Of a stretch of DNA of 18,581 nt, positions 16,385 to 18,581 are shown one piece after another; position 1 is the first letter of the stretch; each line of letters begins with the position of its first letter. The translations under genes and the position numbers were made by a program. The DNA lies in contig JARGFV010000047.1 of the NCBI GenBank assembly GCA_029210545.1, positions 1 through 18,581 of the forward strand. Direction: 5' to 3'. The notes beneath the pieces were generated by a model. It was not told the origin of the DNA. It did not search any database and saw only the letters and a program-made list of their open reading frames with translations. The stretch is from a bacterium (GTDB lineage Bacteria > BMS3Abin14).

Positions 16385-16436
16385 GATGGACTCGAAAAAA
16401 GTCCATCAACGCGCCCCGCGCGGGGCGCCCAAATCA
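16385..16436. repeat. Dispersed palindromic repeat, copy 1
   Basis: This 52-bp unit has two dyads. GATGGACT (16385-16392) pairs with AGTCCATC (16400-16407) around an A-rich loop. The perfect 18-bp palindrome GCGCCCCGCGCGGGGCGC is at 16411-16428. It matches 18494-18545 at 51 of 52 positions. It lies in the divergent gap between the DUF523 and selenoprotein genes. Confidence 0.9.
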
Positions 16437-16582: not shown

Positions 16583-17449
16583 ATGAAAAAAATCAAGGCA
16601 GCATCCACAGCACTGGCCCTGATCCTGGTCCCCACTCTTTTCTCACCGGTCCCTGCCGCCATCGGCGACTCTTTCGACATCCTGGAAAGACGGGAGACGG
16701 TCCTTTCGGGAGCAGCCGTCGACCTGGCCGTTTCCGGTGACGGTCAGTGGACCTTCGTCCTCACAGACGGCGGTGAAGTGGCCATCTACGACAGATCAGG
16801 CAAGCTTCAGCAAACCCTTAAGGTCGGCAGCGGCTTTAACCGCATCGTGTACGACCAGGCCGGGAACCGGCTGCTCCTGGGAGGTTCCGGACGGCAGGAG
16901 CTTCGTGTCATCACCCTGGCCATGCGCTACGGGATCGACGACAGCGGTTCCCCGGTCAAGGGAGCTGCCGGCGCGCCGGTGACGGTGGCAGTTTTCGACG
17001 ACTTCCAGTGACCTTACTGTGCGGGGCTCGTCCCCCTGCTCGAGCAGGTGCTCGAAAAGTATCCGGGAAAAGTCAGGCTCCTTTTCAAGAACTTCCCTTT
17101 GCGCAACCACAACATGGCCCGTCCCGCGGCAATGGCGGCTCTCTCGGCCGGCAACCAGGGCCGCTTCTGGGAGTACCACGACAAGGTTTTTGAAAATTAC
17201 CGCACCATTTCCGAACAGATGCTCGTGGAGACGGCACGGGAGATCGGGCTCGACATGGATCGCTTCGAGAAAGACAGGAAGGACATCAAAACCAGCAACC
17301 TTATCAACCGTGACCTTCAGGAAGGCAGCCGGATAGGTGTCCGCGGAACACCCACAATTTTCATAAACGGCAGACGTCTGGGCGAAAGATCCCTGGCAGC
17401 GTTTTCGGCCGCCATCGAAGATGAGTTGAGACCCATTTCATCCCCCTGA
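16583..17449 (+). CDS. DsbA-like periplasmic selenoprotein (UGA = selenocysteine 143)
   Basis: The frame reads through an in-frame TGA at 17009-17011 to a real TGA stop at 17447, giving 288 residues. Residues 1-26 are a signal peptide (KKIKAASTALALILVPTLF...PAA). Residues about 30-115 look like beta-propeller blades (LAVSGDGQWTFVLTDGGEVAIYD). Residues about 128-285 are a DsbA/thioredoxin-fold domain. The UGA falls exactly at the first position of the CXXC active site: VAVFDDFQ-U-PYC, where relatives read FSDFQCPYC. The cis-proline motif GTPTIFINGR and KNFPLRNHNMARPAAMAAL follow without frame change. A SECIS-like hairpin lies at 17040-17055. The role is probably thiol-disulfide exchange in the periplasm. 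No clear ribosome-binding site precedes the ATG. It is co-directional with the DsbC-like gene 34 nt downstream. Confidence 0.93.
17040..17055 (+). promoter_or_regulatory. Bacterial SECIS element
   Basis: TCGAGC (17040-17045) pairs perfectly with GCTCGA (17050-17055) around the tetraloop AGGT (17046-17049). The loop begins 35 nt after the UGA, inside the 16-37-nt window known for bacterial SECIS elements. It has the G at loop position 2 and the GU that SelB recognises. The core GCAGGU is the same as in the E. coli fdhF element. A competing stem (17023-17035, loop CTCGT) is also possible. Confidence 0.8.
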
Positions 17450-17483: not shown

Positions 17484-18284
17484 ATGAACTGCAACCGTTT
17501 CTTGCTCTTCGCCCCTTTAGCCCTGTTCATCCTGGCCCTGACACTCATTCCGTCCGGAGCGGCCGCTTTCGGGAACGAGGGCTGCGGTGAAAGAGCCTGC
17601 TCTGACTGTCACTCCATCAACATTGATGATACGAGCGAGCTCCTCAAGGATATCGTGAGCCAGGTCCACGCTGCCGATTTCGCCGAGGTGCCCGGCCTGT
17701 TCGTCGTCGACATCACGGACAAAAAGGGCAACCGGGGCATCATCTACATGGATTTCTCCAGATCGTATATCCTCTTCGGGAATCTGGTCGTCATGGGGAT
17801 CGCCGACGGCAGGAACGTGAGCCGGAAGGAGATGATGAAGCTCAGGAAGGTGGATCTTACCACCGTCTCCCTGGCAGACTCCGTGGTGCTCGGCAAAAGG
17901 GACGCCTCAAAAAAGGTGATCCTGTTCACTGACCCCAAGTGCCCCTATTGTGAGAAGCTGCATCCGGAACTGAAAAAAGTCGTCGAGGCCGATCCGGACA
18001 TCGTTTTCTTTATCAAGATGATGCCCCTGGTCAAGATCCACCCGGAATCGTACGACATCTCAAGGGCGATCCTGTGCGAGGGGGACATAACCCTCCTGGA
18101 AGACAGTTTCGCGAAAAAACCGGTCCCTCCGCCAACGTGCGAGTCCGACGCGGTGGACAGGTCTCTCAAACTGGCCCAGAGCCTGGGCATCAGCTCCACA
18201 CCGACAATGATCCTCCCCGATGGGCGGATCTCGCCAGGGTACCTGCCTGCCGAGGAGCTGTTGAAGCTGATAAATGGGGAATAA
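17484..18284 (+). CDS. DsbC-like thiol-disulfide interchange protein with CXXCH motif
   Basis: This 266-residue exported protein has three parts. Residues 1-28 are a signal peptide. A short cysteine motif follows, GCGERACSDCHSI, with C34, C39, C42 and H43 (CXXCH at 39-43). A DsbC-type N-terminal domain (about 50-125) then leads to a thioredoxin-fold domain. Its active site is CPYC at 153-156 (FTDPKCPYCEKLHPEL), its cis-proline motif is STPTMILPDG (P240), and C198 and C219 probably form a structural disulfide as in DsbC. ATG at 17484 has GAGG 9 nt upstream; the TTG at 17469 would overlap that site. Its place behind the selenoprotein suggests a joint role in oxidative folding. Whether CXXCH binds haem is unknown. 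Confidence 0.9.
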   Translation: MNCNRFLLFAPLALFILALTLIPSGAAAFGNEGCGERACSDCHSINIDDTSELLKDIVSQVHAADFAEVPGLFVVDITDKKGNRGIIYMDFSRSYILFGNLVVMGIADGRNVSRKEMMKLRKVDLTTVSLADSVVLGKRDASKKVILFTDPKCPYCEKLHPELKKVVEADPDIVFFIKMMPLVKIHPESYDISRAILCEGDITLLEDSFAKKPVPPPTCESDAVDRSLKLAQSLGISSTPTMILPDGRISPGYLPAEELLKLINGE

Positions 18285-18379: not shown

Positions 18380-18581
18380 ATGTGCCTGATCCTCTTCGCT
18401 CACCGATGCGACCCCCGCTACCCCCTCGTGGTGGCGGCCAGCCGTGATGAGTTCTACGACCGCCCCACCCGCCCCGCCGGGTTCTGGAAAGATGATGGAC
18501 TCGCAAAAAGTCCATCAACGCGCCCCGCGCGGGGCGCCCAAATCAATGACTCACCGCGCCTGGGAGAGGCGCCCGGATCGA
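18380..18581 (+). CDS. NRDE/TANGO2-family protein, N-terminus, interrupted in frame by a repeat (truncated by window end)
   Basis: The start MCLILFAHRCDPRYPLVVAASRDEFYDRPTRPAGFW is the unmistakable N-terminus of the NRDE (TANGO2/T10) family, whose members usually read AANRDEF; here it is AASRDEF. In relatives FW is soon followed by an LAGRDL..GGTWLG segment. Here, after FWKDD, the 52-bp palindromic repeat at 18494-18545 is read in frame as GLAKSPSTRPARGAQI and the expected segment has not appeared by the window edge. The frame stays open to 18581. It could be a disrupted gene or a gene carrying a translated repeat. Function of the family is unclear; TANGO2 is linked to haem trafficking in some reports. 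Confidence 0.8.
   Translation, partial: MCLILFAHRCDPRYPLVVAASRDEFYDRPTRPAGFWKDDGLAKSPSTRPARGAQINDSPRLGEAPGS
18494..18545. repeat. Dispersed palindromic repeat, copy 2, inside the NRDE reading frame
   Basis: It is identical to 16385-16436 except for one base in the first loop (CGCAAAAA versus CGAAAAAA). It contains the same hairpin and the same 18-bp GC palindrome. A further small hairpin, GCGCCT/AGGCGC, follows outside the shared unit at about 18557-18573. Confidence 0.92.

Follow-up and report, generated by a model that had tools for sequence, protein, structure and literature searches.

The gene at positions 16583–17449 of the analysed DNA is predicted, with a probability of about 0.95 for this claim only, to encode a selenocysteine-containing, exported oxidoreductase of the DsbA fold. 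The window, by which we mean the whole 18,581-nt stretch of DNA under analysis, is contig C47 of a 2.72-Mb draft genome (241 contigs, completeness 97.5%), and the gene with its parts, its downstream neighbour and the repeat described below lie on its forward strand. The selenocysteine reading draws on three independent lines of evidence that agree with each other: the conserved position of an in-frame UGA, a covarying SECIS hairpin, and the presence of the decoding genes selA, selB and selC. The initial annotation, which had proposed a DsbA-like selenoprotein from the sequence of the window, is thereby supported. The general class of UxxC DsbA-like selenoproteins is already known; what is new is the subfamily and its architecture.

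An in-frame UGA at the active site

Reading from the ATG at 16583 through to 17446 gives a single frame of 288 residues, in which one internal TGA (17009–17011) supplies residue 143 (U) in the context FDDFQ-U-PYC, and a terminal TGA (17447–17449) closes the product. Two open frames in the same register are joined by this one TGA at the first residue of a CXXC-type active site, as had been claimed from the sequence, and ordinary annotation does break the gene apart in the expected way: translation table 11 yields a 142-aa ORF (16583–17011) and a headless 133-aa ORF (17048–17449). The coding character was also said to continue past the TGA, and it does. The matches to Thioredoxin_4 (PF13462; residues 122–280, E 1.2e-27) and DSBA (PF01323; residues 134–278, E 5.4e-20) both run across it uninterrupted; the third-position GC content is 73% on its 5' side versus 70% on its 3' side; and the orthologues are closed at a similar position by TAA, TAG or TGA. 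The 288-residue CDS is defined by the readthrough translation together with the Pfam matches and the orthologues.

The product possesses the features of the DsbA-like families PF01323 and PF13462: a thioredoxin fold with an inserted helical domain, a [CU]xxC active site and a TP loop with the cis-proline. Within the UPYC active site, the resolving Cys146 (codon 17018–17020) is invariant in both alignments (A1 and A2) and is lost in one extra gene copy described below. The GTPT sequence (residues 255–258), which had been pointed out as a cis-proline motif, includes Pro257 (17351–17353); the T256-P257 pair is invariant among 57 sequences, and family membership leads us to expect a cis geometry for this proline, beside the active site.

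Homologues were sought in 193 relative genomes and in a public genome collection. In 37 loci, including the window and 36 others, a single TGA falls at exactly the position of codon 143, and in 26 homologues with the same N-terminal domain this position is occupied by the Cys codons TGC or TGT; the UGA-bearing position thus corresponds to the redox Cys of the homologues. Scattered stops or frameshifts among close relatives had been named as the mark of a decaying gene; instead, the UGA is kept at the identical codon and no scattered stops were found. The loci of both kinds are mainly from Desulfobacterota (Desulfobulbia, Desulfobacterales and Desulfuromonadales); a single record bears the name Nitrospirae, some metagenome-assembled genomes carry broad names only, and the named cultured carriers are Desulforhopalus singaporensis DSM 12130 (Sec, L069) and Geothermobacter hydrogeniphilus (Cys).

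Mapping Sec or Cys onto a tree of 57 full-length proteins requires 14 changes, and at least seven of these are forced by well-supported branches; the tree gives the number of switches rather than their direction. Recent switches are represented by a congeneric pair of genomes, G009 (Sec, L029) and G004 (Cys, L027), and by the loci L108 (Sec) and L100 (Cys). In the Cys homologue L027 the SECIS sequence is mostly kept with two positions unpaired, which we read as a stem that is starting to decay.

Several variants of the active site were observed among the relatives. An extra copy in genome G010 (L025; contig C301, 1176–2108) has UHYT in place of UPYC, so that Sec is kept, the resolving Cys is lost and the SECIS hairpin is intact; its sequence makes it a possible one-selenol (monothiol-like) variant. 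Two other loci (L098 and L106) carry UPAC. A separate gene in the relatives G003, G007 and G001 (L140, L141 and L142, respectively) encodes a fusion of two domains, one DsbA-like with UxxC (FMUPFC) and one peroxiredoxin-like, whose TxxU motif reads FTPVUTG or FTPTUSG, with two in-frame UGA codons in one protein, apparently a self-contained two-Sec thiol peroxidase; no gene of this type was seen in the window's genome.

The SECIS hairpin and the decoding genes

A hairpin, CUCGAGC-AGGU-GCUCGAA, is located at 17039–17056, with its loop AGGU at 17046–17049. The bacterial SECIS model requires a loop of 3–9 nt with a G in its first two positions, a stem of 4–16 bp, a spacing of 16–37 nt and a minimum free energy (MFE) of at most -7.5 kcal/mol (PMC13188914). 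All of these values are matched by the window hairpin, which has a 4-nt loop with G at position 2 followed by another G, a 6-bp stem, a spacing of 34 nt from the UGA and a folding energy of -9.1 kcal/mol. The family sequence is CUCGAGC-AGGU-GCUCGAG, and the stem reaches 7 bp in most relatives.

Since the z-scores of single-sequence folding are weak (-1.1 to -2.1), the case for the SECIS element is built on covariation. The stem cells are paired in 94.6% of cases among the Sec genes versus 51.1% among the Cys homologues, and a synonymous-codon null model gives 65.7 +/- 2.3% with a maximum of 73% in 2000 randomisations. The hairpin is part of the MFE fold in 35 of 37 Sec genes versus 2 of 26 Cys genes. 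When both hairpins that follow the UGA are considered, the covariation score is 0.206 versus 0.110 +/- 0.013 in shuffled alignments (0 of 500 as high), and structures slid along the alignment score 0.089 or less. Compensatory changes altered both sides in five of the seven pairs of the second stem; the pair 34-45 is seen as G-C, C-G, A-U and G-U. The first of the two hairpins (GGGG-CUCGU-CCCC, 17023–17036, -5.5 kcal/mol) was also considered as the SECIS; it is paired in 63% of cells among the Sec genes, with a synonymous-codon null of 44 +/- 3%, and was set aside as partly conserved only, the second being the better supported candidate. The hairpin at 17039–17056 is, on this comparative evidence, the predicted SECIS element of the window gene.

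The initial annotation had tied the selenoprotein reading to four decoding genes, three of which are present in the window's genome, among them selB and selC, whose absence had been named as refuting the reading. The tRNA-Sec gene selC is recognised at 74.3 bits, the gathering score being 47, and ARAGORN calls it tRNA-SeC with the anticodon tca (UCA); it lies elsewhere in the genome, the Rfam gathering scan and ARAGORN having returned neither tRNA-Sec nor any other RNA in the window itself. SelA (510 bits) and SelB (363 bits, above the cut-off) are encoded by adjacent genes on contig C14. The fourth gene, selD, was not found: nothing in the 241-contig assembly exceeds the SelD cut-off, two SelD profile hits (L018 and L019) proved to be ThiL-like and HypE-like, respectively, and a search of the genome with the Sec-containing SelD of a relative recovered the ThiL-like gene only. 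Among 11 relatives of the same family, tRNA-Sec scores above 70 bits in ten, and selD genes above the cut-off occur in six, each with one in-frame TGA (L050–L055). We infer that the selD gap reflects a missing piece of the assembly rather than a loss, because the assembly breaks often, many times beside a repeat with 59 copies.

This repeat is intergenic and consists of two palindromes, GATGGACT-CGNAAAA-AGTCCATC followed by GCGCCCCGCGCGGGGCGC, and is present in the window at 16385–16436 and 18494–18545. A 32-nt core of the repeat occurs 59 times without mismatch in the 2.72-Mb genome and never in a reversed control, and since many copies are located within about 130 nt of contig ends, the repeat breaks the assembly. 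Near the contig end (18380–18581), the copy at 18494 lies inside a frame whose beginning, over the first 39 residues only, is that of a TANGO2/NRDE protein (PF05742); either a gene is interrupted there by the repeat or the assembly is chimeric at this place.

Two explanations of the TGA at 17009 other than selenocysteine were weighed. In a decaying gene, or after a sequencing error, the TGA would be a nonsense mutation of a Cys codon (TGC or TGT, each one base away) and the downstream half would be a remnant, in line with the two fragments given by ordinary annotation. The conservation refutes this explanation, which we consider extremely improbable: the TGA occupies the identical codon in 37 genes, which come from many families and whose frames continue intact and conserved past it, the catalytic and cis-Pro residues are invariant, and the SECIS hairpin covaries and is largely missing in the Cys homologues. 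The frame would also be open under any code that reads TGA, and UGA 143 might then stand for Trp or another ordinary residue, through a recoded genome or near-cognate suppression. That reading was rejected as scarcely credible, given that homologues have the catalytic Cys at this position, where Trp would be inactive, that tRNA-Sec with the UCA anticodon, SelA and SelB are present and the hairpin fits the SECIS model, and that the same gene terminates with TGA (17447) where orthologues use TAA or TAG.

Domain architecture and known relatives

The selenoprotein begins with a putative signal peptide (residues 1–26, MKKIKAASTALALILVPTLFSPVPAA; 16583–16660), recognised from the sequence with its cleavage site guessed by eye. 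The corresponding region forms a low-confidence helix in the structural model (H2-19), and the orthologues have similar hydrophobic leaders; this leader suggests export. It is followed by an N-terminal domain of two antiparallel beta-propeller blades (16670–16948), with four and three modelled strands in residues 45–111, and by the DsbA-like thioredoxin-fold domain (residues 122–280; 16946–17422), which is matched by PF13462, by PF01323 and by structure.

The AlphaFold2 model of the full-length protein, built from an alignment of 57 sequences, has a mean pLDDT of 93.1. Foldseek and VIA searches with the whole model returned matches to the DsbA domain only, and the N-terminal domain was modelled and searched alone. 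Its 93 residues gave a pLDDT of 91.1 and seven strands arranged as two blades, in keeping with the blade-like N-terminus perceived in the sequence by the initial annotation. Profile comparison with known propellers matched the domain to WD40 (2ymu, E 1.3e-30) and YVTN (1l0q, E 1.3e-22) structures, VIA superposed it on pairs of blades in numerous WD40 propellers with Z of about 10, and Ph1500 was matched as well; the propeller assignment is based on the profile match because the Foldseek E-values for the domain alone are weak (1e-3). The antiparallel repeats and the WD40/YVTN similarity are those of propeller blades, and there are two blades only, the second with three strands instead of four, so that the propeller is incomplete. 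In the DsbA part, residues 113–286 superpose on 3gyk with a VIA Z of 23.7 (2.0 A over 169 residues), and the other structural neighbours include Wolbachia alpha-DsbA2 (22.7), BdbD (22.6), CcScsC (22.1) and PmScsC (about 21).

UxxC DsbA-like selenoproteins, correctly described as known in the initial annotation, have been on record since a Sargasso Sea study of 2005 (PMC1088965). They were described in sequenced bacteria including Anaeromyxobacter, Desulfovibrio and Desulfotomaculum in 2006 (PMC1794560) and in the GOS data (PMC2398784), and they are listed in a 2026 review (PMC13188914). The window protein resembles the COG2761 DsbA-like proteins of the Sargasso Sea, the PF01323 family 'DsbA 1' of GOS and the 'DsbA-like protein form 1' of the review (PMC13188914) in its PF01323 domain and in the Sec residue at the first position of UxxC; a bacterial SECIS just 3' of the UGA and mostly Cys homologues elsewhere are also common to them. 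The window clade differs by its two-blade propeller N-terminus, an architecture absent from the published tables, and by its own conserved SECIS sequence, a distinction made from these tables rather than from sequences. In NCBIfam no model fits the members as one whole-protein family; the nearest, NF041057 (Rcas_1661 family thioredoxin-like (seleno)lipoprotein, 'DsbG-like' in PMC13188914), shares the UxxC motif and matches residues 114–280, the catalytic domain only, at 87.4 bits, far under its curated cut-off of 190 bits.

Other known proteins share parts of this architecture. The trimeric isomerases Wolbachia alpha-DsbA2 and the ScsC proteins of Proteus mirabilis and Caulobacter crescentus likewise have a DsbA-fold domain (Z 21–23) after an N-terminal extension, but their extensions are helical oligomerisation regions (PMC6450060) and their active sites have Cys, in contrast to the propeller blades and the Sec nucleophile predicted here. 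Escherichia coli DsbC and DsbG also combine a non-catalytic N-terminal domain with a thioredoxin-fold domain, and there is a weak DsbG profile match; however, the dimerisation domain of DsbC is an unrelated beta-sheet domain, and the DsbC-like protein of this locus is the neighbour at 17484–18284. In the two-blade tetramer WRAP (6R5X) and in Ph1500, as in the window protein, each chain contributes two propeller blades, too few to close a ring without partner chains; they lack a fused DsbA domain, and their oligomerisation is experimentally established, whereas that of the window protein is inferred. The combination of signal peptide, blades and Sec-DsbA had been suspected to be less described, and no account of a propeller-bearing DsbA selenoprotein was found in the openly readable texts that formed the scope of our literature search.

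Proposed function and redox partners

In the proposed mechanism, SelB would bring Sec-tRNA-Sec (anticodon UCA) and recognise the hairpin at 17039–17056, so that UGA 143 would be read as Sec and not as a stop. The product would be exported via its hydrophobic leader and would take part in disulfide exchange with extracytoplasmic substrate proteins, Sec143 acting, by analogy with UxxC/CxxC family chemistry, as the attacking nucleophile that Cys146 resolves. The two-blade N-terminal domain cannot close a ring alone, and several chains would probably assemble around a shared propeller, which would gather several UxxC domains, in the manner of the N-terminal domains of DsbC, ScsC and alpha-DsbA2, and favour reduction or isomerisation over simple oxidation. 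Such assembly has experimental precedents: two-blade WD40 fragments form tetramers with 8-bladed propellers (PMC6805158), the title of the Ph1500 PDB entry names a homohexamer centred on a 12-bladed propeller, and DsbA-like proteins become isomerases when they oligomerise through their N-termini (PMC6450060), as also described in two further papers (PMC8900818, PMC5524982). A multimeric reductase or isomerase is favoured because two blades cannot close a propeller and because of these precedents, and the blades are proposed to oligomerise the enzyme since its structural relatives include oligomeric disulfide isomerases. We would put oligomerisation through the blades, an argument by analogy, at even odds, and the role as an isomerase or reductase rather than an oxidase may equally well prove right or wrong.

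No match to DsbB (PF02600), VKOR (PF07884) or DsbD_TM was detected in the window's draft genome, which thus yielded neither a classical oxidant nor a classical reductant, an absence that is provisional; a canonical DsbA-DsbB system would include a re-oxidising DsbB or VKOR, and the protein is thus unlikely to belong to a standard DsbA-DsbB pair. Downstream, the gene at 17484–18284 encodes a DsbC-like protein that has a CPYC motif of its own and, in its N-terminal part, a CSDCH motif of possible haem c type; it was assigned by NCBIfam and PDB matches to DsbC, the NCBIfam score being under the equivalog cut-off. A possible haem is an uncommon feature for a disulfide isomerase. This gene adjoins the selenoprotein gene in 9 of about 63 loci (the window and eight others), all from a close clade, and the CxxCH is conserved in all nine neighbours. 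Many more distant members are followed 3' by a phoH-like and then a ybeY-like gene (named from reading of the sequences rather than a profile search), and a redox partnership with the DsbC-like protein is therefore possible but not general; for the window gene we judge it to be somewhat short of an even chance.

The functional alternatives start from the same selenoprotein. It could act as a monomer and oxidise dithiols as E. coli DsbA and BdbD do, with the propeller fragment serving only as a docking or membrane-partner module; UPYC resembles the CPHC and CPYC sites of oxidases, and DsbA oxidases, BdbD among them, match the protein closely in structure. Against this stand the lack of a detected DsbB or VKOR to re-oxidise it in the genome, the two-blade fragment, which is not a closed fold and whose counterparts oligomerise experimentally (PMC6805158), and the trimeric isomerases alpha-DsbA2, CcScsC and PmScsC among the top structural neighbours; a monomeric oxidase nevertheless keeps considerable weight while falling short of probable. 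Instead of working in general protein folding, the selenoprotein might be paired with the CxxCH DsbC-like neighbour for electron transfer or detoxification, with cytochrome c maturation or stress defence as examples. Sec is a low-potential, fast nucleophile, the adjacency is conserved in the window's family, and the general Dsb membrane machinery was not found in the genome, all of which would suit such a role; the restriction of the adjacency to a close clade, with phoH-like and ybeY-like genes following in many of the more distant loci, counts against it, and we consider it unlikely. The full form of the multimeric reading, in which a widespread subfamily holds several Sec-UxxC DsbA domains on an intermolecular propeller of two blades per chain and acts as a selenium-dependent disulfide isomerase or reductase in anaerobes without DsbB, VKOR and DsbD, is offered tentatively, and we doubt that it will hold in every part.

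The analysis recovers a gene that would be cut in two by annotation, and its Sec and Cys orthologues form a recurring group whose SECIS element is clean and covarying. With its repeated switches and recent sister pairs, the group is well suited, as a natural experiment, to asking why bacteria exchange Sec and Cys within a single enzyme. The missing known Dsb partners raise the question of how this anaerobe runs its extracytoplasmic disulfide chemistry. If the blades do oligomerise the enzyme, this subfamily would represent a novel design for a multimeric disulfide isomerase.
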